A stretch of DNA of 64,000 nt from Asterochloris sp. CNOR1. Its lineage: Eukaryota > Chlorophyta > Trebouxiophyceae > Trebouxiales > Trebouxiaceae. The first letter of the stretch is position 1. Every line of letters starts with the position of its first letter. The position numbers and the translations under genes were made by a program. Under the pieces are notes generated by a model. It saw nothing but the letters and a program-made list of their open reading frames with translations, made no database searches and had not been told where the DNA came from. Where the stretch lies: positions 372,001 through 436,000 of the forward strand of contig OZ017749.1 in assembly GCA_963969365.1 (NCBI GenBank), given 5' to 3'. Of the stretch, positions 12,816 through 60,335 are shown piece by piece.

Positions 12816-15800
12816 CTATTGAGACACAGCTGGAGGTGTATTTGCTGTGGCAGACCCCGAGACAGGACCAAGTGTCGGCGTGACTGGCGCTGACAGCATG
12901 ACCTTGGCCGCCTCGTTGAGCTTCTCACGAATGCTGTTCAGCAGCGCGGCTGCCAGCACGCTCTGCAGCATCTTGGCACGCATGCCATCATAGAAGGCAA
13001 AGAAGCCTGCAACAGCAGCGGGGCAGCTCTCGGAGATGCCAATCTTCAGAGGTGTGTCGGGAGTGTTACACAAAGCCATCAGACCCAAAGTAGCCCCTGG
13101 GTGCACTCAAGGGCTAATTTTGGCATAGGGCATGCCCCTCTTGCAAAGCTCAGGGCTCGTGGCTAACTACAACCACCCTGAATGTGGTGTTGCCAGCCTG
13201 CTCTGAGCAGCTCCCATGCAAGGGGAGCAGGCCAGGCATCTTGGCCAGGCGCCTGCTGCCCTTCTATGCGCAGCTGCATCGTCTGCAGAGGCTGAGCAGC
13301 GCTGCAGCCCCGTACGGCATCTGCTGTGCTCTGCAGGTCACAGGTGGGAGAGACAGGAGCCAGCTCCTTGCAGTGTTGAAGCAGGTCCTCACCCTCGTGC
13401 TTCCAGATACGAGTCACTGCATCCACAGCCCCGGTGTACTTCAGATCTACATGGGTGTCCTTGTTGGCGGCCTGCAGGCGGGACTTGACCACCAGCAAGG
13501 GGTAGGTCAGCACTGTCGCGCCCAGCTTGGCGACCGCAGAGATGAGGAAGAACTCGGCAGCAGTGGGTGGGCTGGGCTTGACACCTGCAGTGCAAGTGTG
13601 GGGGAAAGGGCACAAGTGACAAGGCCACGATGGCAGGAGGGGCCTGCTATAGAGGTAGGGCAGTCAGTGAGGCAGGGTGCAAGCTCTGCTTCCTCCTGCA
13701 GCTAAGCCAGGCAATTGTTGAGGCGCCGGTTTGGCCCCTGCACCCACTTCGCTGGTCAGGTCCCCAGGAGTGCACCTCACAGCACATGCCATGCACAACA
13801 TAGCTGTGGACATGGCCAAATGCCCTGCATGGAGCCACTGGCCCAGGGATGCACCATGCCAGACAGTGCTGCAGAAGCGCCAGCCCAGCAGCAGCCTGCA
13901 GCCTGTTTCATCAGCTGTGCAGAGTCCAGCTGCTCTGCCATAGCACAGAGCCCCCCTTCCACGCTGGCTTTGCAACTCCGCTGTTGCACCAGCAGGCGTC
14001 GCTATCACTCCCAGAATGGCAGAGTGTCCCCTCCACCATAGCACAGGAGCCCCCCTCCACATCGGCTCTGCAGTTTCGCCGTCATTTCAGCAGCCGTCGC
14101 TTCCACTCTCAACAGGGCAGAGTGCCTCTTCTGCCGTAGCACAGAGCCCCCCTCAACGTTGGCTGTGCAATCTCGCCGTGGCTTCAGCAGCCGTCGCTTC
14201 CACTCTCAACAGGGCAGAGTGCCCCCTCCACCGCAGCACTCAACACTGGCTCTGCATCCCAGCTGTTGCACCAGCAGGCGTTGGCGCCACTCTCAAAACA
14301 GCAGACTGCTCCCTCCACCATGCCACAGAGCCCTCACTCCTCACTCAACACTGCCTCTGCAACTCTGCTGTTGCACCAGCAGGCGTTGCTAACAGCCTCA
14401 ACAGGGCAAAGCGCCTCCCCAACAAAGGCCCCTGCGAGCTTATACAGCAGCCTGTCTCACCGGCCTTGGCTGTCCGCCCCCGCCACTCAGCCAGGCGTGC
14501 AACCAGCCACTCGTACAGCACATACTGGGCTGTGGGGTTGCTGACCATGATGAGGGACGGCAGGCAGCCACGCCAGAGGCCCTGCACATCAACACTGGGA
14601 TGTGTTCAGCAGCAACTCGTCAGGACATTGGGTGCTGTTCAGCGGGGACCTGTTGGTGTGTGACTGTTGAAGCTGTTCAAGGTTCAAGGGAACTTTGTCT
14701 CCAACAGCACCACTGCCCCAAGTGGCCGCCAGCCCCACGCCATCCATGCTGACTTGTCCAGGCAGCATGATGCAGCCTGATGGCAACTGATATGCCCAAG
14801 GTATCGGCGGTCCGAAGTGCTTTGTTGCTGGCAGCTGCAGGCTTATGATGCGACGCTGTGGCTGGTGGCCCTTGCATACAAGAGGAGGCTGGAAATGAGA
14901 GGACCTTCCCCATGCCCTCTGCTGCAGCCCTGTCGTAACCCTTCCCGGCTGCAGCCCTGTGTTCCAGCATAGCCCAACAGTAGAGATGTGGCACACAAAT
15001 GCTGACCCACACTGGAATGACAAACAAGCTCTTGTATGAGCAAACTGTACGATTGGTTCGAATAACGTGCAAAAGCAAGCTGAAGCAAGCAACACTTGCA
15101 CAGCAGCTGCCGGCCTGAACTCAAGGGTGCAGCACAACTTGCTGGGGCAGGTGCTGCGCATTTGCAGCCCTGTGGTTCCCAAGTTAGGTTGGCGCTCACC
15201 AGCACGCCGTCCTCCCTCACGATCTCTGCAGCCACTGTGAGCGGCCCCTCCCGCCGCGCAGGCTCTGGGAGGCCGTTGCTGCCGCGTTTCTGCTGTGCCT
15301 GCACCGGGGAAGGCCAGGGGGTCAGTGCTGCGGTGTACAGCATGTCAGCCCCCAGGAAGCGCTGCGCCTGCTTTGCAAGGTGCTGGCAGTGCTGCCTGAA
15401 TGACAAGAGCCTCGCCGCCTGCACATGGCTGCTACCACTGGCAGAGTGAGTGCAGGAGCCCATGCCCTGCACTGGTGCACAAATGTGCTACAGTGTTGTT
15501 CCTTTCCCAGAGAGAAACACTTTATTCAGTTTGCAGTGGCATCAGGCAATGCCATTCACCGAGACCCCGCGCCACCCCGGGCCATGTGGGCTGGTGGAGC
15601 CCACATACCGCAGGAACCAAGACCCACCTGCATGTTGGTGGCCACCGTCCATATGGGCTTGAGGACATACACTTAGAAGGGTACACACGCCACCCCGGGC
15701 CTTGTATGCTATTGGAGCTCGCAAGACTCAGGAACAGCAACCCACCTGCATGTTGGTGGCCACCGTCCATATGGGATTGGTCAGCAGCACATTCCCACAG

Positions 15801-19650: not shown

Positions 19651-21130
19651 AGCAAAGGCAGAGGGACAAGGCTGCGGCCAAGGCGCTGCATGACACCCTG
19701 CAGCGGACCTCCATTCAGGAGGATGCAGAAAGCCCAGATCAGCAAGAACCTGTTGCACCCCAGGCGGAGCTGCACCAGGAGGTGAGGCAGCTGTTCTGTG
19801 CACAGCAGCATGTGGGGCAGCACTCCTCCCTCGATGGCGTGACATGCAGAGCAGAGTGTGGAAGTGCCCCCCAAGACTTGTCATGTCTCATTCAAGCTTG
19901 CGGGTAGCTATGCTGTTTGTTTTGCACCGTGCAGGCAGCCTGTAGGCAGTTCACTGACCGCTGCAAAATTGTCATTGCCAGCAGGTCATGCCATTTTCTG
20001 CTTGAAGAGACAAGCCGCTCTTCTGCCTGCTGGCCCTGGATGCACGCAATCTCATGGCAGTGTTTCTGTGCTGCAGGCAAGGCAAGAGAAGTCGCCCCGT
20101 CACCAGCAGAACAATGCTTTCGGGTCCCTGCAAGGGGCAGGACACCCCCAATTGCAGGAAGCGGCCCCGCAGCAGCAGAAGGCGGCCACTGCTAGCGGCC
20201 AGCATCAGCCGCCCAAGCACCAGGCCTCAGCAGCTTCTCAGGTACACACCTTCTTGTCCACTGCAATGCTGTTTTGCTTGCCATTGTAGGTGTTCGATGC
20301 CCCATTGCCTGGTTGGTGCAGACAATGCAAAACCTCCACACGGCCTTTGCAGCCATCTCAGCACATAGCCACAGAGCCTTTGCAGTGTCAATGGCTGTGC
20401 AGGGACAGCAGGCTCACCCTGCCCTCTTTTCTTTTTGTTTTGCCACGCTGCGGCATGCCAGCATGGCCTTCCCCTCTTCCTGTCCATTTGACTGGTGTCT
20501 GCCCTGCCCTCTGATGCCCTGCCTCAACCCACAGCATGCTGCTTGGGCATGCTGCACCTGCCCTTGGGCGCACTGCCTCACCCTGTGGCATGCTGTACAC
20601 CGCTGGCCTGCCTCTGCACTGCCCATGCTGCGGCATGCGTTACACTACTGGAATCTCTCCTTTTGGCCGTCCATAGCTTGCTCCAGAATTGCAGGGGCCG
20701 CACAGCCAGTGTGAGTGCATTGCACAGTGGGTTACATATTACTGTTATCATTTAGATGTCCTGTTGCAGGGCCAGCATGCTCAGGCAGCCCACCAGCAGC
20801 CCGCGCAGTCTCAGCAGCCCCAGCATCAGCAGCCGCCAGGTGGGGCACACCACCAGCACCCCGGCACGTCCGGCCAGCAGCATGCACAGCAGCTGGGAGG
20901 CAAGCCTGGGCAGCCTACCCAGCAGCATGCACAGCAGCCCGTGGGCAGACCTGGCCTGCCAGCGCAGAGCACCCAGCAGCAGCTCTCTGGGACGGGGAAG
21001 CGGCCGCCGCCGTTGAGAGAGCCCACAAGGACCGAGGCAGGCTTCAGGGTCGCGGACGGCGGGCGTAAGGACCAGCCGGGGACACCCAAGGAGGCACACA
21101 CCATCACTGTGGGCGGGGCTTACTACAACG
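19651..21130 (+). CDS. Gln/His-rich low-complexity protein, partial exon set
   Basis: Three phase-compatible exons are supported: 19651-19781 (Lys/Ala/Glu-rich, QRQRDKAAAKALHDTLQR), 20077-20241 (QEKSPRHQQNNAF then Gln/Ala-rich) and 20770-21130 (many QQ, HQQP and QQHAQQ runs, ending TITVGGAYYNG). All begin after CTGCAG- or GTGCAG-type acceptors and end at GT donors. The product is disordered with no catalytic domain; such Q/H-rich regions occur in nuclear and RNA-binding proteins, but I assign no function. The first exon needs one base from an upstream exon that I could not place. The last ends in phase 1, the same phase the first visible eIF2B alpha exon needs, so fusion to that gene cannot be excluded. 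Reading on past 21130 without splicing would stop at 21213. Confidence 0.5.
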
Positions 21131-21214
21131 GTGAGCGCGACATCATGTGCAACACTGTCAGAAAGCAGGCGGGGGAGTCCGCTGCTGCCTCTGAGGGAAC
21201 CCACCGGGGGTGAG

Positions 21215-21297: not shown

Positions 21298-21799
21298 GGC
21301 ACATATGGTGCATGCTGGGGCCAGGCTGTGAGCTTTCCTTGGATGCTGGCCGGCTGGCAGGGAATCTAGATGGGTTCAGGGAAGGGGGGAGGTGATATTG
21401 GCTTGTGTGCCTTGCACATTGTCAGGCATGTGGATGGACAGGCCTGTACTCACCAAAGCCTTTGTTGCGCAAGGAAAGTCGAGCTTGAGCCTTTTGGTGC
21501 ATGAAAGTTTGCAACAAGTGATCCCATCAATCCAGGATGTGAGCCTTGCTGTGGCCTTGCTTGGCGCAATCCCCATCATTGTATCATGGTGAGTTTTGAC
21601 CCTGTCTGGGGTAGTGGTGGAGTTCAAGCCCGACCTAACTTCATGTCTGACAAGGCTTGGCAGTACAAACGACAGAATGCTGCCAGTACCTGCATCTGGC
21701 ATCTCGCTGCTGCTGGCCAGGACCACATCTGACCATTTGAGCCCCCCCCCGCGCTGGACTGCACGCGAGCAGGGGAACCAGCAGGCACCTGCATCGGGT

Positions 21800-22035
21800 T
21801 CTGACACTCAACCTGCACCATGTGAGTCTGGCTGGTGCAGCAGGCACTGGGCATTTAGATGTCAATCTGCGCCAGGTGAGTTTAGCTGGTGCAGCTGATG
21901 CTGGGCGTCTGCGTCTCAACCTGCACCCGGTGAGTCTAGCTGGTGCAGCAGACACTGGGCACCTGAATCTCAACCTGCGCCGAGTGTGTATAGCTGGTGC
22001 AGCAGGCACTGGGCATCTGCATCTCAAGTGCAGGC
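21800..22035. repeat. About 54-base tandem repeat carrying GGTGAGT and GTGCAG in each unit
   Basis: Four to five units share CAACCTGC(A/G)CC, GGTGAGT(C/T)TAGCTGGTG, CAGCAG(G/A)CACTGGGC and ATCTGAATCT. Each holds a donor-like GGTGAGT or close variant followed at short distance by an acceptor-like GGTGCAG. The array lies between the Gln-rich exons and eIF2B alpha. Confidence 0.8.
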
Positions 22036-22530: not shown

Positions 22531-22962
22531 CTGTAGCTAGCAGTGCATTGGAAGGGCATTGTTGTGCCATGCCCCGGCTCCCTGTGCATGCAAACCCAAC
22601 AGACCGACAGATCTGCTGACCCTGCCCGCTACTGCCTGTTGCAGCCAACAGCGCATCGGAGGGCATCGTCCGGGAGTTCCATGAAGCGCTGGGCAGGTCG
22701 CCGGATATGGCTGTTGCAGTAGCTGCTATCAAGGTGGGTTGCCTTGTTTCTATGCTGTATTTCTGGCATTAGGGCAGAGCAGCAGCGGATGTGTAAGTGG
22801 AGGCGCAAATCAGCTTGTCAAGCAGCCGCCATCAAGGTGGGGCTTGTGGGAATCCTGCTGCCTCAAAGCAGACCAGCAATTTTTGCAGAGTCATGCATGG
22901 TGCCCGCCACTGCCGTGGCAGCGCCACTGCTGTGACAGTGGCAGCCATCAAGGTGGGTTGAG
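22531..22962 (+). repeat. Copies of both edges of the first visible eIF2B alpha exon
   Basis: Upstream, GTAGCTAGCAGTGCATTGGA at 22532 resembles the true junction TGCAGCCAACAGCGCATCGG. Downstream, the exon end GCTGCTATCAAGGTGGGTTG (22722) is echoed by GCCGCCATCAAGGTGGGGCT (22824) and GCAGCCATCAAGGTGGGTTG (22941). Each of the two downstream echoes keeps the GT donor context. Confidence 0.75.
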
Positions 22963-25900
22963 CCTGTGTTGCTGGCACCTGCAGTGCTGGCAGCAAACAT
23001 GCCATCTGCACAAAGTTGTTGTTGGCCTTGAGCAGTGCCCTGACACTAGCAGCATTGCCGCGGTCGCCCTCAAGGTCCAGCCGCTGCTCGTTCCCTTTGT
23101 GTTTTCTTGCATCATGATGCCTCACGATTCAATGTGCTCAAGTAGATGCCGCAGGCGCACACTGCCTTGGAAGGTGCCTGACGCTGCCATGGCAGATGGT
23201 AGCCATCCAGATGACCAGCCTTTCTGCCAGCAGCCTACTGCTGCGTGGAGAATGACCTGACAAGGGTCATGCAGCATGCCACAGGGTCTCGCCGTGTGGT
23301 TCCATGCCTTCCAGGTGCCGCTTGAGCTCAGTCGTTGCTGAGCTGCTGGGGGTTGCCACAGTAAATGACATGTCCCTCGAGTTCTACACGCCTTAAGGTA
23401 CATACAGAATTTTGAGCTTATTTCATGACAAGTCCTGGGGCAGGCCAGTTGCTTTATGACTCAGACGCAGCTCTACAAGGTGGGGGAACCTGACAGGCAT
23501 TGCCCTGGGAAACGCAACCTCAGCTGGTGCAATATTCATGCTGCGCCTTCAAGTCAGGCATGGCTGTGCTGGCTGCAGGCGCTGACCAGCGTCATCCTGA
23601 AGAGCACCTCCAGCACCATGATGGGGCTGGAGAAGGAGCTCAAGGAGGCAGCAGCTTCCCTGCAGAGGTCAGCATACCTTGTCTGTGTGGAGACTGTTCC
23701 ATGGAAGCAGGGGAAGGTCCCAGTTGAGGCTCAGGCAAAGGAGCCAGGCGGGCAGCACTGTTGCTGTACGGGGACACCTGCATTGGCTGCTGCCTCAGTG
23801 CAAAAGTCAACCATGCCTTCTCTGTGCCGAGACTATCCTTTGAAAGCAAGGGGCCTTCAGGATAAGAGGGAGGGCTGCCTCAGCAGTACAGTACACCAGT
23901 GCCTGCTGCACTGCATGGCTGGCAAGAGCTGCAGATGGCAGCAGCAGTTGTGCAGAGGCCTGTTGTCTTGGTCGTCTCTGGGGAGGCCAGCCATGTCTGC
24001 ACCTGGGGAGGACAGCAGCTTGTGCGCGCGGGAGTCACAGCAAGGGTTGCCTTCTTGGAGCGGTCCCTAAGGGAGCTCTGCATGCCGGGAGCAAGAGCAT
24101 GACTCCCTGTCTGCTGCTGGGCTAGACAGTGTGTGCTGTGACTTGAGAGCAGATTGCCACATGTCCTGCCTTCAGGCTCTAGTATGCCTGCTGGGCTGAA
24201 CATCTGTGCTGTGACTTGAGAACAGAGAGCCCCATGGCCTGCCTTTGGGCCTTAGAAAACTGCTCTGCGTGGCAACAACAGCAGCATGGATCCCTGCCCA
24301 GTCGTTGTGTTGGAGTGGGCCACTTCCCACAGCCGGAGCAGCAGCATGACTCCCTGGCCTGCCTGGATGCTTAAGGTTGAGCAGTCTGCTCTGCATGGCA
24401 GGGTGTGCACCCCTGGCTGAACTGAGGCAGCCTTGGCTGGACTGAGGCTGCTCTGCTGAAGAACTCTGCTGCAGCTGGAGCACGTTGCAGTGTTCCTGCG
24501 GAAAGCCGCCTGCCAGCGCTTTATGGTCTCCAGTGACACAGTGGGGTTTGCCATCCCTCCTTCTAAGCAGGCATTTCATCTATGGCCTGAAGCTGCCGGC
24601 AACCGTAGGCCAGACCGATGTGTGACTGGGCTGTGCTTGGCGCTGCAGATGCAACGAGACGGCCATCTCACTCAAGGCCAGCTGCGAGCTCTTTCTGCGA
24701 TACACCACTCGCACATCTGCTCTAGATACAGAGGACGTTGACACTCTCAAGGCGCGCATCATTGAGGTGAGCTCCCGTCATATCTGTGGTGGGCTTGCCT
24801 GCGGCAGCTTGCTCAGTGACTGTTAGGCGGGAGATGCTGCGCGCATGACGTGCTGCCTGGGGTGCTGAGGTAAGCTCCAGCCCGCTTCAAATGCCTCTTC
24901 AGCTGGCACAGAAGTTGGTTGGCAATTGTCCAGCCAGACACAAAGGACTCTCACGCGCGTCATTGAGGCCACTCCGTGCACCGTTGGGGGCTCACACCTG
25001 AATCAGGGTAGTGCATGTGGCAGCTGGTGCGGACACACAAGACCTTAACACTGTCAGGTGCAGATTGCTGAGGGGAGCCACATGCATCATCTGGGCAATG
25101 TGCCTGTTGCTGTTGTTGTCACGGTCACAAGCCTCTACAGGGCTGGCACAGCGGTCACTTGTATTGTCAGGGTGCATATCATTGAGGTGAGGCCCAGCAC
25201 ACCGTGACGGACCACACCCTTCTGGGGTCTGCGCAGGTGACAGCTGCTCAATTGCAGGACATGTGACTCCTGTGGTAGGCAACACCCCCAGCTGACCAGC
25301 AACAGAGCATGCATCCGTGGTGCATCTTGCGCCTCTGAATCTCCAGTCATTGCATGGGCCTTGCTGTGAGCAATACCTGATGCCCTTGGTGCTGAGCAGC
25401 AATGTGGCTAAAGTGCTGTTCTACAATGCTTAGCATCTGCACTTGCCTGCCTGCACGACTGTGTCACTAAGCCACACACATCCCAGGTGGCCGTGCAGTC
25501 ACCAGCTGCCGCCAAAGCCAAAGCCTGTGCCCACATGAAACAGCACTGGCCTGGTGCTACAGAGGGGGAACCACTTTGCAGAGACCTCGACTGCGGCGCG
25601 GCAGACCATCGCAGAGCTGGGGGCGCGCTTCATCCGCCCTGGCTGCACAGTGCTTGTGCATGGTTTCTCCCGCGTGGCTCTGGCCCTTCTGCGCAAGTGT
25701 GCCAAGTCGGTGAGCGCCCCCCGCTTTGCTCCGCTTTGTGACAAAGTCAAACTTTGGAGTGAGATGTCTAGCTGTACTGCTGGCCCAAGTGTGTCAAGTG
25801 GCTGTGTATGTTGCTCTGCTGAGCAGAAAGCTATTTTGGGGCCAGTGCATCACCTGACCAGCCCTGCTATGCAAGCATGCCAAGCCGGAGCACCGTGCAC

Positions 25901-27526
25901 CACTGTTGCACAGACGCTCACGTGTGTTGCTGGCTCTGCTGCGTGTTTGCTCTAAGTTGGTAAGTGGATTGTACATGGCAGAATACCTACCTAGGCGTGC
26001 TGCAATGCCTGAGTTGCGGGTCATGTAACATGCAGGCTTGAGCTGTGGTTCATGATGGGAGATGCTTGGCCAGCTCTGCTCTGTGCTTGTGCGAGTGGTG
26101 CACTATAGTATGGAGCAGCTGCATTGAATGCTGTGAGGACTGAAAGAGCTCTTGGGCTGAGCCTTTTGCCCTCTTTTGGCTGCTTCTTGACAGCCTTCTC
26201 AACTGTGCACGCTGCAGGGCATAGACTTCAGCGTGGTCGTCACTGAGGGGCGGCCGGACGAGACAGGGCTGACCATGGCCCGCCAGCTGGACGAGCTGAA
26301 GGTGCCCGTCACCATGGTTCTGGACTCGGGTGTCAGCTACGCTCTGGAGGTCCTCAGGTCAGCACTGGCTTTGGCTGTTGATCAAAAAGCTGGCAAGACG
26401 TGCAGGGGAAGCTGGTAACCTGTAACAAGGTCGACTGCGACTTGCTGTTGCTGCCTCTCTCCCTCCCCCTGTCTTGTAGCTGCCTTTTTGTGTCAGCTGC
26501 CTCCTGGCAGATGAATCTGGCTTGCCACGATAGAGCTGGCATTGGGCCAGCTACGCCCTGGGGTGGCTCACTTCAGCCTGCAATGCACCACATATGTAGA
26601 AGAGGGGCAGGTGCTGTGTCAATGATAGTGCACATGTACTGGCCCGTCTGCAGGGAGATCAGCCAGAGCAGCTCAAAAGGGGTCTGCAGTCACCTAGGGA
26701 GCTCTGTGCCTGGGCAGGTGGTCTCTGTCCTTCTCCTCTCCATTGATCAGGATTGGTAGTCAGGCACACGCTGCCTCTGGAACCCTGCTTGCGCTTTGCA
26801 GCAGTCTGCAGGTTGGATATGGCTGCTGCAGAGCGGCTCATCAGGCAGTCTGTTGCACCGAGTTAGCAAGGTGCCATCGGTATGCATTCTGGGGACGTCA
26901 TTTCACGCTTCACAGCCTTGGCTGCAGGGTAGACATGGTGTTGGTCGGTGCTGAAGGAGTTGTGGAGAGCGGAGGCATCATCAACAAGCTGGGCACCCAC
27001 CACATTGCCATTGCAGCCAAAGCACAGGGCATCCCTTTCTACGTGGCAGCAGAGAGTTACAAGGTGGGGCTGCACAGTCCTTGCGTGGTGCAGCATCACT
27101 AAGTCTGCCATGCTGCCTGGTGCGAGGCTGCACCTGTCTGCTTGCAGACTGCAGGAGCATGACAGTCTGCCTGCGCTGCACCGCGTTGCTCAGAGCTGCA
27201 CAACTGTCGATTTATGCGTAGTGCTGGTTCCCTTGCTAAGTGACCAGCAGCATTGCACAACATTCTCACCCTGTCCTGCTTTGCTAGTACCCAGGCTCAC
27301 CGCACCTTCGCTGCTGCAGTTCGCTCGCCTGTACCCGCTCAATCAGTCAGACCTGCCAGTGGAGCGCAAGGCCTGTGACTTTGGCCCTCTGCTGCCCAAG
27401 TCGTGTTCTGTTGTGAACCCCTCTCGGGACTACACGCCACCAAAACACATCACGCTTTTATTCACAGACCTTGGTGTTCTCACACCAGCAGCTGTTTCAG
27501 ATGAACTCATTCTCTTGTATGCATGA
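22645..27526 (+). CDS. EIF2B1: Translation initiation factor eIF2B subunit alpha
   Basis: eIF2B is the guanine-nucleotide exchange factor for eIF2; alpha is a regulatory subunit that senses phosphorylated eIF2. Seven exons fit the frame: 22645-22733, 23579-23667, 24649-24766, 25563-25709, 26218-26357, 26928-27063 and 27320-27526, giving 308 residues against about 305 in human. Family matches run throughout: [12 protein letters not shown] at the start, [111 protein letters not shown] and the C-terminus SDELILLYA. The initiator exon is unresolved; only a few residues should be missing, and the first visible exon needs one base from upstream. Three introns carry decaying copies of the adjacent exon edge. 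Confidence 0.94.
24950..25200 (+). repeat. Two copies of the eIF2B alpha exon end ARIIE plus donor
   Basis: The true exon end GGCGCGCATCATTGAGGTGA (24751) is echoed in its downstream intron by CACGCGCGTCATTGAGGCCA (24953) and GGGTGCATATCATTGAGGTG (25170). The second copy preserves the GTGAG donor. Confidence 0.75.
25770..25985 (+). repeat. Two copies of the eIF2B alpha exon end LRKCAKS plus donor
   Basis: The true end (CGTGGCTCTGGCCCTTCTGC, then CCAAGTCGGTGAG, up to 25713) is echoed by GCCCAAGTGTGTCAAGTGGC near 25782 and by GTGTTGCTGGCTCTGCTGCG followed by CTAAGTTGGTAAG near 25923-25965. The last copy keeps a good donor. Confidence 0.65.
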
Positions 27527-32282: not shown

Positions 32283-35200
32283 TCAGAGAGATGCAGTGGC
32301 AACTGCCCAAGCTCTGGCTGATGCAGTGCAGCAGCAGTCACAGCAGCATGTTAGGTGCTCACCTGACTGCCCGCAAAGATTCACACCAGGCTGCCCATTG
32401 CTGTTTCCTGGGCCTGCGTTCCCGCCGTCAGCGTTCTGCACAATATTGCTGCCGCTGGCGCCGTTGCAGATGTTAGTGCCGCCATTGCTGCCACTGCCAG
32501 GGGTGCTGCTGCCACTGGACCCACCGCCGCCACCGCAGGTGCAGCTGCTGCCCTGGCACTGAGACACGCCGGATGGGCCGCCAACAGGCAGTGAGGGCTG
32601 GGGGCCTCCAGTCTCACAGTCGCCGCTGCCAGACATCTGCAATTGACACAAGCAGAGTCAGCCTCTGCGTTTGCTTGGCAGTCCCTTGTCTCAGACATGC
32701 CAGACTTCAACATGTGGCCGCCAAGCCAAGTCCAGGCAGGGCAGCTGAGCGCTTGTGGTTGCAGTCGCCGCTGTCAGACATCTCAAGCTTGCACTACAAG
32801 TCTGCACACAAATATGGGAGCTCTGCAAAGCCTTGCACTTGGCAGCTGCAGCAAGTCGCATGGGTGTAGCAGGCGAGCAGGCATGTCATGGTGCAGCATG
32901 GACAGCCAGGTGATGCAAGGCGACTGCAGGATGCAGAGAGGCCAGCTGGCCACCTGACCTTCACGCCGCAGTTTGAAGCCGTGGTGTGCACGTCCCCCGA
33001 TCCTGACACGGAACCAGTGACTGGGACGGAAGCTGCAGGCAGGGACCAGTGTCATGTGGTGGTCATGCAAGAAGGCTTGGAGCTTGCGTGAAGGCTGACT
33101 TGCCTTTGGCGTGAACAGCATGTCAGCGAGCCACAAGCTGCAGCAGCACTTGGACACTTCAGGTGGAGGTTGTCAGGAGGCAGAGCAGTGAGAGGCCTGC
33201 CTGTCGCCCGTCTGCAGGCTGCATCGGCTCTCAGAGCAGAGATAACACTGCCTGCCTGCCAGCCCAGGCTGCCAGCCTGCAGGGCATGACAGCTCAGGCA
33301 AATTTGAGCTTGGGGCAGGCTCACCGTCAGAGGGTGCCACCGTGATCTCGCCGCTGCCGCTGCCAGTGACGCTCGCGCTGGGAAAGCTGCCTGCCACTCC
33401 TATGTTGCCAGACCTGCGCATGAAGGGGCAGTCAGTCAGGGGTACCTCCATTTCTGACAGGACTGCGGGGCAAAAACGTCAGGAGTGTGCATGCATGGGG
33501 AGCTAGTTGAATTTCACACAAACATGAGTCTGGTACAAATGCTGCTGATGTGGGCTGCGGTGCTTGGTGCAGCAGCAGCGCACCACTCCAGAAGGAGAGC
33601 AATAGGGCGGCATGCATGTCCTGTCAAACCCAAAAAGCAAACATCAGCCTCACGGGCAAGGAATGCATGTTGGCAGGGCGGGGCTGCAGTGACTGCAAAG
33701 CAAAGCCATGAGTGGCCTGCTTGGCCGCAAAAGAAATGCCATGATGCTATGCAGCTCACCCGCTGGAAGTGATGGTTACTGGGCCAGCGGCCTTGAGCCC
33801 CACAAAGACAACATCTCCTGACCTGCAAGACAAGTAAAATATGAGTCAGTGCTTAGACAGGCGCCACAACACCACTTGCCATTCCCTGCCCTGCGGCTGG
33901 GCCTTGTCTGGCATGTCACTGCAGGCGCAAGCTGAATACAAGCGAGAGCTGTGCAGGTTGATGTCAGGCAGGTGAGGGAAGGTCCTGGCAGGTGCTGTGT
34001 ACCAGGGAGCCAACGACAGCACAGCACAGCCAGCTTGCAGGCAAGCAGGCGCGGCTACACACAGACTGCAGACAGCATGAATGAGATGCAGCAACAGTGG
34101 CAGTGCCATTCTCACTAGCAGTGCCATTCTCACCCATCAGTGGTGGCTGTGACGCTCCCTGTGCTGAGGCTGCTGATGCCAATGTCACCAGAGCCCCCGG
34201 AGCTGGCTGTGAAGGTGGAAGGCGTGAAGCCAGCATCCACCTGGATGGTGCCTGCGCCATCGGTTGCCACCTGCAAGGCCTCTCAGGTTCTTGAGGGCTG
34301 CCTGAAAGACCTTTGGCATTTGGCTGCACTGCCTCCACATATCAGATGGCGGCCAGCAGGCCCCTTTATGGTCCTTGCGCTGCCGGCTACCACCTGCAGG
34401 ATGTGTCAAGTGGCTTCAGCTGAGGACAGCTACTGCTAGCATGCATCATGCTGGTCCCTTTGCCAGGTGGCACCCCTACACCAGATGTCGGACTGTGGTC
34501 AGCTGCCCAGATGAGACAAGCTCCTAGGCCTGGCTCGGCTGCAGATCTACCACCTAAGTGCTGTCAAAGTGGAACGCCGGACGCAGAAGTCCCCCCTCAC
34601 ATGCCTGTGCCATTGCCCACCACCTGCAGGACACTCGTTCCAAATGCCTGGATGCTTGGCCAGCACCATGCCAAGTTAGTGGCCTCATCTGCTAACATGA
34701 TGAGCTGCTCAGTATTGGAGCCAGTGCCACGATACCAAAACCTGCAGGGTCCAAGTCTGATTAATGTCGAATCCTTTCCACTGCCTATTGGGCTACTCAG
34801 CTGCAGGCAGTGCGGGACAACCTCAGGTCCTAAAGACTCAATTCTTGGGACTGGACAATATGATGCAGATCTTGGCCGGATGGACTTGCCAGCGTGGCGC
34901 AACAACAGTAGAATGGTATGCCGCCCGCCTGCTGGCTATGAATCAAGGCGCATAACTTGGCCCAGCAGCTGTGCTGGCAGGGCAGGGCAGCGCAACAGGA
35001 CGTTGAAACTGCGCAAGCAGCCAGAGCCAGGTGGACTTGAAGGAGTGCAGCCTCTGGTGGTCACACCCACACAGGCGCTTGTCAGTTCTACTGCATTTAG
35101 GGTGGTTGCAACAGCACTACCAGGTTGAACCTCGACTGTCCCAAGCGGGGCCTGGCCCACCCAGGCTCCCTGCTGAGTGCAACAGGGACCCTATATAGTA

Positions 35201-43800: not shown

Positions 43801-46800
43801 GCAGGGCAGCTGGCAGCCAAGTGGCGCAGGCGCCAGGGATGTCCCTGTGGCGGCAGACGCTGCTGCTGCCACTCCTCGCACTGGGGGCACTCCAGAGGGG
43901 CTGCAGACGGACCTGCCAGCCAGCACAGTCCCTCAGAGGGCTCACAGGACAGCTGCTGCTCCTGTGCAGGACAACAACAGCCCCAAGCCTCCGCCCATAA
44001 CCGTAGATGAGGCAGCAGAGGGAGTGCAGCTGCTGCTGGCCCTCAAGGCCGGGCTCAGGCAGGGCTCTGCACAGCCAAGCCATGGCAGCGCCGCTGCCAG
44101 AGGTGGTGGCAGTGGCGGCCCTGCTGCTGTGGCTGCTGACAGTGGCAGCCCAGATGCCGAGGCTGCACCTGCTGCTGAGGCTGCTGGCAACAGCAGCTCC
44201 CATGCTGTGTTTGGCGCAAGTGGCGGCCCTACTGCTGAGACTGATTCCGATGATGAGGATGACTTCAAGCCTGCAGTGCAAAGGCAGGGCATGCTGCGAG
44301 GGAGGAGTCACAGCAAGCAGCAGCAGCCAGCAGCAGCACCTCAGGTGACGGCCGTCTCTGCACGCTTGTCCCAAACAGAACAGCAGAGACCACTGCTTTA
44401 CATACTTACATTTGCCCAGCTGCTCATGATCAAACACGTCTTGGATGGTGTCTTTGGTGCAAGCTCCTACAGGCTTGTTCAGTGAGAAGTGCGACCAGTG
44501 AACACACGAATACATGCAAGCACTTTCTGCGGCCTGCAGGTCAACCTAATGGGGCACTTGCTGTACACTCTTGGGCACGCCGGCAGTAAGCTTCAAAGGA
44601 GGGTGGTCACAGCCTTCAACTCAATGCCGGTAAATGTGTTGCTGAGGCGGCTGTCATGCGCCAGCCACAGTAGTCACATCATGAGTGCCAGAGTCACCAT
44701 TTGTTGAGTTTGCTGCTTCCAGGGGTGTACAGCTGTGTCTGTAGGGCCAGCAGGTGCACAGGGTGCCTCTATAGGTGCTGCTCTTGTTGCAGCAACTGAG
44801 GTAGTGCGCAGGGCAAGCAAGTGTACAGAGTATGCAGTGGTCAGGGTGCAGAGATGTGTCTATAGGACCAGGCAGAGAGGGTATTTGGTGCTGCTCTGCT
44901 GTTGCGCAGGGCAGGCAAGTGTACAGATCATGCTGAGATGAGGGCGTGCTGGTCTTGCTGTATAGGCACAGCAGGTGCAGACATAGTGTCATTGCTACTT
45001 TCAACAGGACGCTGTACCGCTGTGCTGGGCAAGCAGGTGTACAGAGTATGCAGTGATCAGGGTGTACTGCTTTGCTGTGTAGGGCCAGCAGGTGCAGAGG
45101 TGGTATCATTGCTGCTCTCAATAAGCTGCTGGGCTGCTGCTGTGCAGGGCAAGCAGGTGTACGAAGTGCGCAGTGGTCAGGGCAGGGCGGGCTGGATCGA
45201 CCTGTCTGGTGTGGAAGTGGCTGCGCCTGGCTGCCTACACCAGCAAGGCCAGCTACAGCATCAGGTGCTGGTGCCCACAATGGGGCTGCGGCTGGAGCTC
45301 CTCTGGCCAGGGGAGAACGCCTGGTTCGCTGGCAGCGTCACAGACTTTGACCCGGCCGAGGTGAGCTGTGCCCCTGGCAGCTGACTGCTGGCCTTGGTGC
45401 TGGGCTGGGTTTCAAGGTTCATTTAGCTTCCATAGAGTTGTTACCAGAGGCCGTGCTCCCTAGCAGTCACCAAACTGTTGTGTCCACAGCACTGCTGCCC
45501 ATGCAGTGTTAAGTGACTAATAGCACGGCTGGCTTCTTGGGTCGGTCAGCCATTATTCAGATGTCGTCTCTGTGCTGCAGGGCAAGCATCAAGTGCAGTA
45601 TGAGGACGGTGATGTGCAGTGGGAGAATCTGTTGACTGAGGAGTGGCGGCTGCAGAGCCCAGCGCCAGCGCAGAAGGCTGGTGGGGCAGGTGCCCAAGTG
45701 GAGCTGCCTCCCAAGCAGCTCACTGCACAGGCGGAGCCAGAGCCCTCGGCTGCGGCTGCTGCAAAGCCTCAGGAGGCAGGAGGCAGCCCTGTGGCAGACT
45801 CTCAGCTGATTCAGGGTGGGGCTGCAAGGCTGCTGCCAAAGCAGGAGAATAAACAGCCGGAGGCAGGCTCAGAGCTTCTGGCAGAGCGGTTGGGTGGCAG
45901 GAGTCTTGGGGCGGAGGTCAGCAAGGCTGGCCTGCAGAGCAAGCCACACACCTCTCCCCAGAGTCAGCAGGTGGGCAGCACACGCTTGCGCAGACCTCAG
46001 CCGGGCAGCAAGCGCAGACCCCTGGAGGGTGGCAGCGACACAGGGCAGCATGAGCAGGGGCCACGCAAGCTGGCGCGGCACAGTGTCAGGCAGGGTCCCA
46101 CGGAACAGGCCAATGCTGCAAAGCAGAGGGGCGAGCCAGCTCAGGTGTTAGCCCAGACAAGCAGAGTTCAGATGCATGTCAACCCTGTACGCCGCAGCCT
46201 TAAAGGACGCACCAGGCTTGGCCCCCGTCCCGTTGTGGGAGGCAGGCAGCGCCAGCGCCCCTGGGCTGCGCAGGGCAGCAGGGGAGACCAGCAGCCAGCA
46301 GCAGCCGTGACAGCTGCTGCTGCCATTGACGTGCAAGATCCCTACCTGTTCAGGGGCACTGAGCAGCAGTCTTCCCAGGTGGCCGCTGATGCAGCCTCAG
46401 CAGGGCTGCCAGACAAGCAGCCTCCACAAGCAGCCGTGCCTCCTGCTGCTGCACCAACAAACCCGCTTGGCACACAGCGGCCGCCAGGCAGCAGGTTGAT
46501 GCTGCCGCCAGCAGGCAGGGCTGCAAGGCCAATCGGGAAGCGTAGGGCTGCCAGGCCAGTCAGGAAGCGCAAGGCTGCCAATGGTGATGCCCCTGCGCTG
46601 GAGCGGCAGGCAGGCAGCAGGGCGCCGCCACGGCAGCAGGCTGGTTACAGCAAGCCTGCCACAGGCAGCTCAGCAGCAGCAGCTTCTGCGGAGCCTGGCG
46701 CACACAAGGAGGGCAATGGTGTCTCTGAAACCCAGGCCAACCAGCACCCTCTGTCAGCCTCTTCACAAAGGCTGCCCGACTGGGCACAGGTGAGCGCTGA

Positions 46801-48781
46801 TGGCAGGCAGCAGCTACCAGAGACAGCACAGGCCAGTGCAGGACCTGTTGCAAGGCAGCTGCCGCCTGGGCTGTGCACATTAAGCAGACGGCAAAAGCAC
46901 CCAACTGCTGCTGTACATGTGGCTGAGGCGCGGCCGGCTGGGGATGCCTCTGGCAGACCACAAGCTGCAGGCCGCCCCATCAGCCACGTCCCTGCTGAGC
47001 GCCCAGACAGAGCATCTGCCGCAACCCTGGGGCAGCAGGCAGCAGCTGACCCCTCTGCCGCCTCTCGGCCGCTGCTGGCAGCTGAGAGTTGCCTGGGCCC
47101 CCTGACCATTGTCGCCTCAGGCTTGGACAAGGCAGATATGCAGAAGCTGAAGCACCTCGTCACGTCCAACCAGCTCGGGCCTGCGCACTTTGCAACCGAG
47201 GTGGATGACAGCACCAGCTGCCTGGTCTGCAAGGCAAGCCAACAACCTGTTCTGGTGGTGCCTGCGCATATTGTTTTTCTCCATCCTCCTGTGTGAAGGC
47301 TGCATTGAATGCAAATCTGAGCATGCTGCTGTCCTGAAGCAATGTGATCAGCAGAGCCCAGTCTTGGGTTCCAAGCATGGGAAGAACGCTGCCTGGATGA
47401 ACACATTTGACACTTGACGCAGCAGAGTGACAGCTTCTGTGTCCATTTGGCCCTCCTTTGTTAGCGGGGTAGCCACTCACAGCTGGCCGCCTTGCAGTGG
47501 CCTGTATGGTCATGGCAGGCTCCAGCTAACTGCTGGAAGCAGGGTTGCAAGGTCCTCAAGCAACTGTCTAAGGAGGTCATGCCTCTGTAGGTGGACTCGC
47601 AGGGCAGGGCCAAGCGCTCCCTGAAGTACTTTCAGGCAGGCCACCTCGGCAGCTGGATAGTCACCTTGCGCTGGGTTGAAGAGAGCAAGCATGCTGGGCA
47701 CTGGCTCAGGTTTGAGCCTTTTGAGGTTGCGGGAGACACTGCCGCTGTCGGGTGGCCCCGCACAAGTAAGCCACACTCCACAGCTGTCTGGAGGGACCAC
47801 ACCTGCAAAGTGTTCTGGGATCTTCTGCAGTGCGTCTAGCGGCCGTTGCTGCTGCCTTCCTGCAACACTGCGACATCTGCATGCAGCTGGCTACACCAAA
47901 GAGTTGTGCCATCAGCTCCTGCCAGGCCTAGGACGGCAGTCTTTGCCAGTGCTGTTCCTTCCCTGGAAAGCTGACAGCAGGTGTTCATTCCAGTTCATGC
48001 AGTTCAGTTGGTGGCAGCTACCTCCTTTGCGCACACAGGGCTGCAACCACCTCTCAAAGCATTGCTTTCAGAAGCCTCAACTGAGGGTCAGCCTGGCAGT
48101 CACTTCAGGTCGTGATATTAGAGAGTGACAGCCATCTTCTGATGACATACAGGGCTGCAGCCGTCTCTGAAAGCAATGCCTGGTGCTGCAGTGCGGCTGA
48201 AGGCCTCGACTGGGAGGCAGCCTGGCATCCTCTCAGGGTTCAACTTCATCATCGCCCCAGCGAATCCAGTGCTGGCAGCTATGGTGGAGTGTGCGGGCGG
48301 CAAGGTGCTGGGGGACCGCCAGGCGTACCCTCGGCCAGGCAGCGCAGCTGCGGCGCGATGCCTCGTCATCTCAGCCAGGGCAGACGGCTGGCGCCACAGG
48401 GATGCCCTGCACTGCCAGGTGAGTTGATGTGTCCAAGCAAGCCCATGGCACGCAGGCCTCCAAGGGGTGCTTTTGACACATTCCTTTGCTTGCATTGGCA
48501 GTGGGGACCTAGGTGGGCTGCTGCTACTTCAAAGTCTCCATGAGCAGAACAGCCCCTGCAGCTTGTATTAGATGGCTTAAGTGTCGTCCTGACCGTCCAC
48601 AGCTGGCTGCAGCAAGGCTGGCTCTGACGGGCTCGTTATGCTGCAGGCGCACTCAGCTCACCCCGTCCTGCTCAGCAACTGGGTGATGGATGCAGTCTCC
48701 AAACAGCAGCCCCTGCTTCCGCTCCCTGAGGACTACATCTGTCGATCTGCAGTTGACATGCCCGAATCGGCAGCACAATAA
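40822..48781 (+). CDS. BRCA1/BARD1-like protein: RING, Tudor-like domain, tandem BRCT
   Basis: Ten exons keep one frame for about 1812 residues: 40822-40892, 40967-41023, 41116-41822, 41937-42088, 42296-44344, 45148-45360, 45581-47233, 47591-47765, 48192-48418 and 48647-48781 (TAA). The RING is built by splicing three exons: ICSLC, then TCGHTFC, then RQC and ECPCCHRPAWKRDLHAN, the BARD1/BRCA1 subtype expected to act as an E3 ubiquitin ligase module. Two very long exons encode disordered Ala/Gln/Pro-rich sequence. Between them lies a Tudor-like domain (LRLELLWPGENAWFAGSV, GKHQVQYEDGDVQWENL). The C-terminus holds two BRCT repeats (KRSLKYFQAGHLGSWIVTLR and FNFIIAPANPVLAAMVECAG, then HPVLLSNWVMDAV). 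The family acts in homologous recombination. An optional in-frame intron at 41280-41414 and a NAGNAG acceptor at 41931-41936 are uncertain. The join at 47233 appears to use a GC donor (AAG|GCAAGC). Confidence 0.88.
44740..45190 (+). repeat. Four tandem copies of the 5' edge of the Tudor-domain exon
   Basis: The true junction CAG|GGCAAGCAGGTGTACGAAG at 45148 is preceded by three related copies about 110-120 bases apart, each reading GGGCAAGCAAGTGTACAGAG or similar (44811, 44909, 45028). They are followed by GTGCTGCT/GTGTACTGCT phrases also present in the others. The copies keep acceptor-like CGCAG or GTGCTG contexts. Confidence 0.8.
48060..48245 (+). repeat. Extra copy of the 5' edge of BRCT2 exon 48192-48418
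   Basis: GAAGCCTCAACTGAGGGTCA and GCCTGGCAGTCACTTCAGG at 48071-48110 parallel the real exon start GAAGGCCTCGACTGGGAGGC and GCCTGGCATCCTCTCAGGG. The upstream CACAGGGCTGCAACCACCTC is likewise repeated at 48149. Confidence 0.75.
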
Positions 48782-56803: not shown

Positions 56804-57676
56804 TCATCTGGCCTTCATCACATCAGCAAGAACAGCTGCCGGCAGATTATAACTGACACATGCCCTTGCTGGCGCACGACCAGCCGTCCATCCAGGAGGT
56901 GGGTAGTTGTCAAACAGATTGATGAATGCCTCCTCATAGTGCTGCTTCAGCTTGGCGATGGAAAGTTGGCCACCTCCAGATTGGAACTTCCTGACAGGCA
57001 CAAGGATCCTGAATCGAAAAAGGTCAGGAGGGTGTGCCGCTAAAAACTCATGAGCAACCACCAGTGGCTCCTCTCGCAGGCTTCCGTTGGGCCCTTGCAG
57101 GTACTTCATGGAGCGCTTCCGCTGGTCAGTCTGCTGCTCCTTTGGGAGGGCATTGAACTCCTTCTCATCATAGCCAGGGTTGTGAATCAGTTTGCCGTCC
57201 TTACGCATTGGCACTTTGCCAAAAGAGTTTTTGGCCAACACCCTTGGCAAGGCGCTTGTTGTGCAACCCACACTCTCTGCAGCAGATTTCAGCAGACGCT
57301 CAAACTCCTCATACGTCTTGCACTGCAACTCTGGAGTCGCTGCCTTGATGGCGGCTGTTAGCACCTGCACTGGGCCTTGCCGTCCAGCACCAGTTCTGGC
57401 GCCTCCATGCGAGATCTCCCACTCTCCTCCATACATGAACTCCACTGTCCTGTGCTCAGGATCCTTTGGGCGGTGATTCTCGTGGTCGTTGTTGTTCACG
57501 TACAACGACCTGTAGTCGCCAAGCCCCCTCAGGCCATGAGCTGGTCCAGCATCTGCTTTCAACTCATTGAACATCTTGACCTCCACAGACCCAGTCTCTG
57601 TACCAAAGATGAGTGCCATAGAGGCAGCAATGCAGGCTTTGACAGCGCTCTTGGTCTTGAGAGCCTCAGACATCAC
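56804..57676 (-). CDS. Unrecognised 290-residue frame, probably continuing the frame 57673-57879
   Basis: A long uninterrupted minus-strand frame with balanced, protein-like composition (MSEALKTKSAVKACIAASM, GDYRSLYVNNNDHENHRP, VEFMYGGEWEISHGG, FRFRILVPVRKF, YEEAFINLFDNYPPPGW). It has many Lys/Glu and aromatic residues, unlike the Ala/Gln-rich low-complexity genes to the left. It has no membrane segment or recognised domain. Its first ATG overlaps the stop of the preceding frame by four bases (TGATG), and both frames read as one protein broken by a shift near 57685. It is either a damaged gene or two overlapping frames. Being intronless and of unusual composition, it may have entered with the mobile-looking DNA at this end, but that is inference. 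Confidence 0.5.
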   Translation of the reverse strand: MMSEALKTKSAVKACIAASMALIFGTETGSVEVKMFNELKADAGPAHGLRGLGDYRSLYVNNNDHENHRPKDPEHRTVEFMYGGEWEISHGGARTGAGRQGPVQVLTAAIKAATPELQCKTYEEFERLLKSAAESVGCTTSALPRVLAKNSFGKVPMRKDGKLIHNPGYDEKEFNALPKEQQTDQRKRSMKYLQGPNGSLREEPLVVAHEFLAAHPPDLFRFRILVPVRKFQSGGGQLSIAKLKQHYEEAFINLFDNYPPPGWTAGRAPARACVSYNLPAAVLADVMKAR

Positions 57677-57879
57677 AAGGAGATGTACATGGTGGTTGCC
57701 TGGCTTGTGGTGAAAGTGCCTGAGTACTTCTTGATGTTGTGTCCAAAGACATCCTTCAGAGCCGCCAAGCTCTGTCGCGAGATCTGCAGCAGCTGGTCCT
57801 CATTGGTGGTGATGTGGTTGACAACAATCTCAAAGTTGCGATCTTGCCTCTTGCCGCTGCCTGGCTTGGTCTTCGTCAT
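57673..57879 (-). CDS. Unrecognised 68-residue frame upstream of and overlapping the 290-residue frame
   Basis: The product is basic at its start (MTKTKPGSGKRQDRNFEIVV) and polar after (NHITTNEDQLLQISRQSLAA), ending QATTMYISL. The ATG follows GAAAGCAGGCC, which could be an acceptor, so this may be an internal exon of a longer minus-strand gene, possibly the zinc-finger gene upstream. It has no known domain. Confidence 0.4.
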   Translation of the reverse strand: MTKTKPGSGKRQDRNFEIVVNHITTNEDQLLQISRQSLAALKDVFGHNIKKYSGTFTTSQATTMYISL

Positions 57880-57904
57880 GGCCTGCTTTCCTATGAGTGA
57901 GATT

Positions 57905-57993
57905 GAAAAGCTCTAAGTGAGAGCTCAGCCCATGATCACGACAAATTTAATGTTGCCGTCGATGTTCTCGCTGCTGCCATGCTTAGCCTTCAT
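57905..57993 (-). repeat. Decayed copy of the 57879 frame start, placed just upstream
   Basis: On the minus strand GCAGGCTACGATGAAGGCTA, GCAGCAGCGAGAACATCGAC and TTAAATTTGTCGTGATCATG parallel GCAGGCCATGACGAAGACCA, GCAGCGGCAAGAGGCAAGAT and TTTGAGATTGTTGTCAACCA in the real frame. It keeps an ATG but stops after 22 codons. Confidence 0.7.
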
Positions 57994-58059
57994 CGTAGCC
58001 TGCTCGAAGCAAGCAGCCAGCTCTAACTGCCTGAGCACAGACTGATCCTGACCAGAAAG

Positions 58060-58500
58060 GACTGGCACTTGCATGCGAGCCCCTCCCCCCTTTACTTTTG
58101 GTGAATTTGGTGGTGCTCACCTGCCCAGACCAGCTGCATTTGCCAGGCAGATAGGTAGCGCATGTTGAGCAGAAGGGATGCCATGAGCACATGACAGGGG
58201 CATATGAGCCCCTTTCCCCCCTGACATGAGGCCCCCCTCCCCCGACTTGTAGTGATTGTGGTGGTGCTGGCACAGTGCAGCTCTGTCTGCTCAAACACAG
58301 ACACAGAAGGATTGGCTTGCCCACATGAGCCCTCCCTTCTTATTCTTGGTGTTCATGGTGACATTTGCCTACCCAGACCAGCTTTGTTCGCTTTGGCACA
58401 GATTGATGCTGAGCAAAGGGATGAACACGTGCACAATAGCCCCCCCCTCCCCTAAGTTTTGGTGATTTTGGTGCTGCTCAGACACTGATGATCTAGAAGT
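58060..58500. repeat. Minisatellite block 1 with CCTGCCCAGACCAGCT core
   Basis: Imperfect units of about 110-130 bases share CCCCTCCCC, TTTTGGTGATTTTGGTGGTG, CTCACCTGCCCAGACCAGCT and CACAGA(C/T)TGATG(C/T)TGAGCA. Read on the minus strand, the core is GGGCAG|GTGAGC, an acceptor and a donor back to back. Confidence 0.75.
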
Positions 58501-58741
58501 TCCAGATGAGCTGCTGGAGATAGGCATCTCAGAATTAAATCACTGGAATCACTAAATGTTAAGGGAGGAGGGTGAAGGCAATGCAAGGATGTCACTTTGG
58601 TGTGGGGGCTCTGCGGGCGCATCTAGGAGGTCCAGATCTGACTCTTGAGCCCACAAGTCTGGTCCTCCATTCGAAATATTGCAATGACACTGTCTTTGGT
58701 AAAAAGCTGCTGGTCACGCTTATTCTGAGCTGCACGCTCTT

Positions 58742-60335
58742 TCACCAGCTTCTTGATTTTCTTGTGTGGGCTGACAGGGGGCCAGCCTCTGCGTGCTCCT
58801 CAATCTTGCCCTCCACCCAGTCACAGAAGCTCTGCAGCACCCGTGCGCTCTCCATGTCCAGGTGCCCCGCAACTTCATTCCACCTCATGAAGTCTGGCAG
58901 TCCTGCAGTCATCAAGACTGGCTGAGGGCAAGCTGACACAGTACACAGTGGCTCAGCTTGTGCAATACTGGCAGCCTTCAGATCCTCACCAGGCTCAGTG
59001 AGCACCAGTGCGCCTGGTTCCTTCACTACTTTGCAATACACTGAAGCCAAGCGAGGCTGCTTGAGGTTGCACCACACAAGTCTCGCAAAAGCGCTGCCCA
59101 GGTCGAGAGGGTTGTGGTGTCGCAGCAGCGTCTTGGCATGTGTTTTCCAGTCATTCAGAAGAAATTCGTACTCTTCATTGCTGCCACCCACCTGCATGGC
59201 AACAACACATAGTCACATTGAGCGAACGCTGGAGAGGAGGCAAAGTATTGTGTGGCCTGTCTACCTGGGTGCTGAGCTCATGACTTGAAACAAAGAGCAC
59301 AGCTTGGCATGCCCTCAAGGGAGCTCCTGCAAGTTTGGTTCCTGTGAGGAGCGGGTCCCTGAACAAGGTGGACTCGACCTGTCCTTGAAAAGCAGCCAGC
59401 TCTGTTTGCCTGAGCCCAAGCTCATGATGCGCAGAGAGGTTTGACATGCGCATGCGAGCCCCTCCCCCCTTTAGTTGGTGAAATTGGTGGTGCTCACCTG
59501 CCCAGACCAGCTGTACAGATGTATATCAAGCAGAAGGGATGGACACGAGCACATGTTATGGGCATACGAGCCCATCCCCTCCCTACATGAGACCCCCCTG
59601 CCCTGACTTTTGGTGATTGCGGTGGTGCCTTCACCGTGCAGCTCTGTCTGCTTCAGCACAGACTGATGTTTCAATCGAGAGGATTGGCATGCGCGCATGA
59701 GCCCTCCTCTTCTGAATTTTAGTGTTACTTACCTGCCCAGACCAGCTTTGTTCGCCTTAGCACAGATTGATGTTGAGAAAAAGGGGTGGCATGAGCGCAT
59801 GAGCCCCCCTCCCCTATATTTGGTGGTTTTGGTGGTGCTCAGACACTGAAGCTCCATCCACTTCAGCTCAGACTGATGTTGAGCAGGATCATTACGTGAC
59901 GACATGAGGCCCTCCTAGCCCTGGCTTTTGGTGATTTCAGAGAACTCACCTGCCCAGGTAAGAGATCACATCCTCTGCTCACCTCAATGTCCTTCAAGCG
60001 AACGCTTGATGGCTCTGACAGAACTGCTGATGCCTGAGCACTCGGCTTGGCCTGGGCCTCCTCCTCACGCTATCTCTGCAGGGCAGTGAGGGATAAGGGC
60101 CCGCGGGAGCCAAGGCTCCTGGTGAGCGGGAATGCTACTCACACACCTTCTGCGCCTTTGCTGCAGCCAGTGCCTCCTCATATTCTTGCTTCGTGATGCA
60201 GTTGCTGTCTGGATCTTTCTCAGCGTCTGTCAGGAGGTCCCACCCCTTGCAATCGAAGTTGCGCGGCTTCATGTGCGCCACGAAGTGTCCCCGCTGGTCA
60301 CTGAAGTGGTGGCAGGCAGGGCAGCGGAATGGCAT
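58742..60335 (-). CDS. Zinc-finger-like protein, unrecognised family
   Basis: Supported exons are 60147-60335, 59983-60069, a segment ending at 59265 (from about 59453) and 58742-59191. The first exon encodes MPFRCPACHHFSDQRGHFVA followed by HMKPRNFDC, a C-x2-C...H-type C2H2 finger at the very N-terminus, then an acidic stretch with KQEYEEALAAAKAQK. The second joins in phase (REEEAQAKPSAQASAVLSE). The last ends with CDWVEGKIEEHAEAGPLSAH and TGA, though a GTGAAAG donor at the stop could extend the gene toward 57.9 kb. The third exon's acceptor is unresolved. Two minisatellite blocks occupy its introns or flanks. Finger-plus-unknown-body genes of this kind are often mobile-element derived, but I see no transposase motif. 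Confidence 0.5.
59440..59980. repeat. Minisatellite block 2, same family as 58060-58500
   Basis: Four or more units repeat CCCCTCCCCCC, GGTGGTGCTCACCTGCCCAG, ACCAGCTTTGTTCGC and AGACTGATGTTGAGCA. The last short piece at 59944 (CTCACCTGCCCAGGTAAGAG) abuts the real exon end at 59983. Confidence 0.75.

Follow-up and report, generated by a model that had tools for sequence, protein, structure and literature searches.

Introns of the chlorophyte Asterochloris sp. CNOR1 hold decaying copies of the exon borders beside them, and these copies are probably best explained as tandem duplications that crossed an exon border and were kept in the intron by splicing at the outer site. The starting point was a window of 64,000 nucleotides (nt) on contig OZ017749.1 (assembly GCA_963969365.1, positions 372,001 to 436,000 of the forward strand), for which an earlier prediction, made from the sequence alone and called the original prediction here, had proposed such copies genome-wide. 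The copies are confirmed within the window and beyond it. At p≤0.01 a copy in the adjoining intron is present for 61/482 edges at donors and 36/483 at acceptors, a clear enrichment over mid-exon control segments (4/363 and 8/371), which is the comparison that the original prediction had named as its check. "Genome-wide" stands in so far as the excess appears in a pooled sample of six regions from six contigs; its basis is 314 kb of a 56.4 Mb genome.

Excess of copies at exon edges

The sample comprised the window and five further regions of 50 kb each, one from each of contigs 1, 2, 3, 5 and 6, out of 21 contigs in the assembly. A gene finder trained without labels on the same 314 kb gave 575 introns in 35 predicted genes, with a median intron length of 265 nt, the donor consensus CAG/GTGAG and the acceptor consensus CTGCAG/G (the slash marks the border). 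Since adjacent genes were sometimes fused in the predictions, as with eIF2B alpha and a short-chain dehydrogenase, gene counts given here are counts of predicted units. Each edge (at most 40 bases of exon plus 6 of intron) was matched against the intron that it borders, and length-matched p-values were taken from 200 random same-length stretches of other introns (60 in an earlier run). The edge tests took introns of at least 140 nt (487/575) and left out the 88 shorter ones. Chance-level controls passed at 0.5% to 2.2%, so the test is slightly liberal. Alignment rows that paired a stretch with itself (100%, offset 0, or no exon part) were disregarded.

The excess is specific to position and orientation. 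Segments from the intron interior passed in 17/437 and 13/448 cases, giving odds ratios for edge versus interior of 3.6 at donors and 2.7 at acceptors, and inverted edges stayed near chance (donor 3/482, acceptor 8/483). The far edges of neighbouring exons showed little excess (7/471 and 7/465), on which ground duplication of whole exons was rejected. The passing introns number 91 of 487, against a chance expectation of 10 to 20 with two tests per intron, and are spread over 27 of the 35 predicted genes. Between two confidently coding exons the counts are 32/230 for donors and 21/230 for acceptors, with mid-exon segments at 1/210 and 2/215. Outside the window the excess persists (donor 50/398, acceptor 28/399), as it does without region C3 (donor 42/411, acceptor 24/411), where the acceptor comparison with the interior then reaches p=0.056 only. 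This region, C3:1000001-1050000, is the richest of the six, with 19 donor and 12 acceptor matches at p≤0.01 in 80 introns.

The copies are also private to their exon, as the original prediction had held in setting them apart from introners and transposons. In blastn searches at E≤1e-3 with 1150 edges, nine matched their own intron and seven (four plus, three minus) matched any other intron. In a scan with windows of 30 bases across 242 introns whose two flanking exons are confident, swapping introns between genes left a match for 0.0-0.4% of exon windows. In the unswapped scan, downstream copies were found for 6.1% of windows at -10 from the donor border, 0.9% at -40, 0.2% at -55 and about 1.3% inside introns. 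Direct, exon-private copies of this kind bear out a local process.

Introns with copies are longer than those without (medians 429 and 276 nt). By length class, the share of introns with a donor copy is 8.3% (140-200 nt), 4.8% (200-300), 11.9% (300-400), 26% (400-500), 30% (500-700) and 20.7% (above 700). The proposal that the process could create, shift or lengthen introns is thus upheld for lengthening and not for the other two. As to shifting, upstream copies at donor-edge windows amount to 0.2% (at -10) versus 6.1% downstream; the upstream figure rises to 4.5% deep in long exons, where copies of the other edge and within-exon repeats are not separated.

Copies in the carrier and eIF2B alpha genes

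In the window, copies of a donor or acceptor edge reach p≤0.01 in seventeen introns. Fifteen lie inside the range covered by the original prediction, in five predicted genes, and the remaining two, outside it, belong to the helicase gene. Both donors and acceptors are affected, as claimed (11/84 and 8/84, about 0.8 expected each). Four of the seventeen (1540-1680, 16441-17189, 50609-51048 and 52840-53308) show weak or short matches that may be due to chance, and intron 21876-22463 begins at an exon without coding support. The spacing of 60 to 200 bases first put forward does not hold: window offsets span 76 to 367, and a single weak match sits at 654. Pfam searches covered parts of the window proteins and no protein of the five regions elsewhere. 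Among six window predictions they supported a mitochondrial carrier, eIF2B alpha with the short-chain dehydrogenase, DNA polymerase lambda with BRCT, DUF2807 and a DBP10-type helicase; in the prediction from 56240-64000, 750 of 776 residues have no Pfam match.

In the carrier gene the 36-base identity noted earlier is exact (Table 1), and similarity at 83% extends from -34 to +58 of the border. The edge encodes NPIWTVATNMQ, residues 161-171, within the Mito_carr stretch 141-233. A comparison of the carrier with solved structures showed no alignment over this edge and is not drawn on here. A genome search with 15620-15790, which contains both copies, found its own locus only, among the matches listed. 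Another carrier intron (13585-14460) contains a 97-base array of three copies at 13933-14228.

The echoes ascribed to eIF2B alpha are present in introns 22734-23578, 25710-26217 and 26358-26927 and in the intron starting at 24767. The exon edges concerned lie in or adjoin sequence aligned to solved eIF2B alpha chains, and the first edge has a second copy of 21 bases at offset 103. The carrier and eIF2B alpha edges encode conserved protein sequence, which makes the exon the source of the copy and the intron its recipient. The most distant copy of the 24743..24767 edge closes a predicted exon, 25064-25186, whose 41 codons have a coding score near zero. In the alignment to a solved eIF2B alpha chain, query residues 91-137 (47 residues) face six chain residues. 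We infer that this exon is false and that the true intron is probably 24767-25562. The decoy splice sites that had been proposed do exist as sequence, and one of them apparently misled the gene finder here.

Origin and decay of the copies

We propose that small tandem duplications, with units of about 30-130 bp, would arise anywhere in genes. Those wholly within exons would alter the protein and mostly be lost, whereas those spanning a border would be tolerated if splicing stayed at the outer, original site, that is, the first donor or the last acceptor. The duplicated edge and the splice site that came with it would then sit in a longer intron and decay as neutral DNA while the protein stays unchanged. 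Because the exon copy would be held by coding constraint and decay more slowly, the similarity within such a pair would last up to about twice as long as that between two copies in an intron, and border-spanning duplications would stay visible longer, which may account for the peak at the edges. Near-whole units are seen head to tail in several cases (offset 87 with similarity from -19 to 66, offset 84 with -35 to 52, a repeated offset of 29, and the carrier copy at 118). The near-multiple spacings 79/160, 60/123 and 108/216 are what repeated duplication events would give. Matches running wholly from exon to intron (21/30) are common at offsets of 70-200, with none under 70 in one scan and one at 50-70 in another, and intron-to-intron repeats are present from the shortest scanned offset, 10; close second splice sites may have been purged.

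Decay was followed in copies for which only exon sequence had served as the query, 28 at donors and 13 at acceptors. GT is intact in 14/28 donor copies, in line with an identity of about 75%, and the donor dinucleotide matches no better than neighbouring bases; AG is intact in 11/13 acceptor copies, which are few. The claim that copies carry the splice site is thereby right for these and wrong for the others. Mismatch rates at codon positions 1, 2 and 3 are.185,.149 and.214 in 27 donor matches and.185,.176 and.275 in 18 acceptor matches, a third-position excess that is only mild. Together with the state of GT, this pattern suits a constrained exon facing a neutral copy. Exon homology at depth 28-68 is found in 13/28 donor and 7/13 acceptor copies.

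Simulations of tandem duplication with exon constraint, ten settings in the final set plus earlier ones, show that such a process can suffice. The best unbiased setting reached a chi-squared of 29 over 30 points, the other nine 35 to 322. It combines mostly old duplications (0.4-0.65 substitutions per site) with units of 30-130 and the purging of most events that include less than 30 nt of intron, so that the events behind the copies would mostly be ancient. Since settings were picked after seeing the data, the fit demonstrates sufficiency and is no proof.

Several points weigh against this account. Simulations that are neutral with a constant rate miss both the edge peak and the skew to 70-77% identity, their edge/interior ratio being about 0.9 to 1.5 and their copies mostly young; the fit requires an old episode of duplication as well as a filter, and both were tuned with the data in view. 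On the intron side, homology can be detected in 8/27 donor and 5/13 acceptor cases and not in 19/27 and 8/13, where it may have decayed. At depth 68-108 exon homology is nearly absent (0/25 donors, 1/11 acceptors), yet many offsets exceed 100. Only one edge match of at least 30 nt with 90% identity or more is among those listed, and two introns with border-spanning offsets of 29/58 and 60 are exceptions to the minimum offset. Nine paralogous intron pairs, from two window genes only, differ by inserts of 18-278 nt, few of which clearly match their flanks: two, of 108 and 51 nt, include 29 bases that agree at 86-90% with sequence close by, and the others match weakly.

A process aimed at exon borders is possible and not needed. 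Duplication biased to borders, for example through breaks tied to transcription or splicing, would account for edge/interior odds ratios well above those of the constant-rate neutral models, and for the short exon parts of copies despite their long offsets. However, a model that has no border bias but assumes an old episode and a filter already fits, and three settings with a threefold bias gave worse chi-squared values (76, 212 and 322), though only three were tried, one of them with a constant rate. Near-identical copies, moreover, show an edge excess of at most about twofold at donors and none clear at acceptors. We therefore regard a border bias as unlikely, if the strongest competitor. 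The wider idea that introns of this lineage grew for the most part outward from the edges of their exons, through border-biased duplication in a past episode, which would have multiplied donor and acceptor copies and so set intron length and seeded decoys, is slightly more doubtful still.

Function is a weaker candidate. The copies could serve as decoy or spare splice sites or as regulated alternative exon ends, given that some keep a full donor or acceptor consensus, that AG survives in most acceptor copies, and that one was strong enough to mislead the splice model. Against this, half of the donor copies have lost GT, which is no better kept than its neighbours, and functional decoys were rejected for that reason. 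In two paralogous intron pairs, conservation of the copy does not clearly exceed that of the remaining intron (18/25 versus 217/274; 31/40 versus 192/269), and in both it is unrecognisable at the aligned place in the partner. An acceptor-edge match elsewhere in the partner intron has p 0.015 in one pair and 0.43 in the other. A functional role for the copies is thus very unlikely.

Three further explanations have little to recommend them. Mobile elements or introners inserting with long target duplications could leave a copied edge 75-200 nt away, flanking the insert, but introns of at least 80 nt (n=548) share little sequence, with 22 pairs (37 introns) alike at E≤1e-3 and ten of these within one gene, and several cases are head to tail. 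Introners are rejected as a class, given how little sequence is common to introns of different genes, and insertion is highly improbable. No more credible is the idea that the copies are left over from introns having been created when an exon piece with AGGT was duplicated in tandem. The kind of mutation is the same, one intron has 29/40 flank matches where the null maximum is 26, and the downstream half of the register test shows a mild excess (about 13/570 above the cut-off versus 6.7 expected). The donor and acceptor flanks of the same intron otherwise lack clear similarity in register, with the mean close to the null and the upstream half at about 6/570 versus 7.1 expected, and the listed copies are mostly interior to introns, not at their far ends. 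Finally, gene-model error, by which false or missed repeated exons yield matches, has a probable example in exon 25064-25186, and some edges are without coding support (21773-21875), but the excess holds between confident coding exons and copies also occur in Pfam-supported genes, so that we give it next to no weight.

In introns without visible repeats, direct k-mer echoes reached a ratio of 1.86-1.98 at lags below 100 versus 1.64-1.77 beyond. Inverted k-mers were also 1.5-1.9 times the shuffle, which makes the shuffle too weak a reference, and nothing is drawn from these echoes.

Known systems and further cases in the window

Duplication across an exon border has precedents in single genes. 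For a potato RdRp gene, one border-crossing tandem duplication and an 83 bp intron-internal one have been described (PMC4974935). As in Asterochloris, a short tandem duplication spans the border and carries splice signals; in potato it reportedly gave a new intron and added exon, whereas here the copies stay in existing introns, are often old and mark a sizeable fraction of the introns tested. That introns can be gained by tandem duplication is well established (PMC3443670 and PMC2891723). Gain through AGGT also places a second exon-edge copy in spliced-out DNA, but predicts an intron as long as the unit, with copies at the far end, which is not seen here as a class. For Drosophila, PMC2891723 describes novel intron positions by sliding or tandem duplication. 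There too local duplication near splice sites changes gene structure; unlike sliding, our cases show no clear sign of moving borders, upstream donor-edge copies being rare. No report of genome-wide exon-edge copies was among the papers listed in searches of the open-access literature, which is weak evidence of absence. What seems new is the frequency of such duplications and their intron-lengthening role in one genome.

With each copy comparable to a constrained exon, intron growth by mutation becomes measurable, and a single genome is enough to follow duplication, decay and the competition between splice sites. For annotation there is a warning, in that a decayed edge copy with an intact donor apparently gave a false exon in a conserved gene. 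If other lineages are alike, intron length would partly record tolerated border duplications.

Further cases in the window are listed with the carrier and eIF2B alpha features in Table 1. The array at 21800..22027 is doubtful because coding support is lacking (log-likelihood ratio, LLR, -1) for 21773-21875, the predicted exon at its start.

Table 1. Exon edges and their intronic copies in the window
Feature	Position	Strand	Match or basis
Carrier exon 15746-15893 edge with donor, source of the exact 36-base run	15740..15775	-	30 exon and 6 intron bases
Carrier edge copy with GTGGGT, intron 15299-15745	15622..15657	-	exact 36-base run, offset 118
eIF2B alpha exon edge with donor, codes AVAVAAIK	22710..22739	+	sequence and alignment to solved chains
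Copy of 22710..22739 edge with GTGGGT	22929..22958	+	25/30 identical, offset 219
eIF2B alpha exon edge, codes TLKARIIE	24743..24767	+	sequence and alignment to solved chains
Copy of 24743..24767 edge, GT lost	24947..24968	+	21/25 with 3-base gap, offset 204
Further copy of 24743..24767 edge, then GTGAGG	25169..25192	+	14/18 exon bases, offset 420
eIF2B alpha exon edge	25683..25710	+	sequence match
Copy of 25683..25710 edge, GT lost	25861..25888	+	22/28, offset 178
eIF2B alpha exon edge with donor	26334..26363	+	sequence match
Copy of 26334..26363 edge, GT decayed to TT	26548..26577	+	23/30, offset 214
54-base array, unit with donor-like CAGGTGAG	21800..22027	+	doubtful case
Acceptor edge of exon 20770-21209	20765..20791	+	copy 20398-20424, 22/27, offset 367
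DUF2807 gene acceptor edge	32617..32642	-	copy 32762-32786, 24/26, offset about 144
DUF2807 gene acceptor edge	34231..34275	-	copy 34354-34398, 33/45, offset 123
Polymerase lambda-like gene acceptor edge	45144..45182	+	copy 44808-44846, 34/39, offset 336; more copies in array 44906-45182
Exon start region, 7 bases inside exon 48192-48418	48199..48227	+	copy 48071-48098, 24/29, offset 128
Acceptor edge	57849..57887	-	copy 57966-58004, 30/39, offset 117; upstream exon 13 bases only, LLR 0
DEAD-box helicase gene acceptor edge, outside the range of the original prediction	7023..7063	+	copy 6918-6958, 32/41, offset 105

The DUF2807 (PF10988) prediction, at 32036-40232 on the minus strand, consists of two paralogous units in tandem; seven introns in each half have a counterpart in the other, with the best local stretches at 71-91%. 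Introns 34742-35364 and 39076-39704 both share an inverted match of 47-67 nt with one intron from region C3, which may be a dispersed repeat. In the gene without a Pfam match, introns 58134-58775 and 57883-58120 each resemble intron 59192-60146 at 75-80%.

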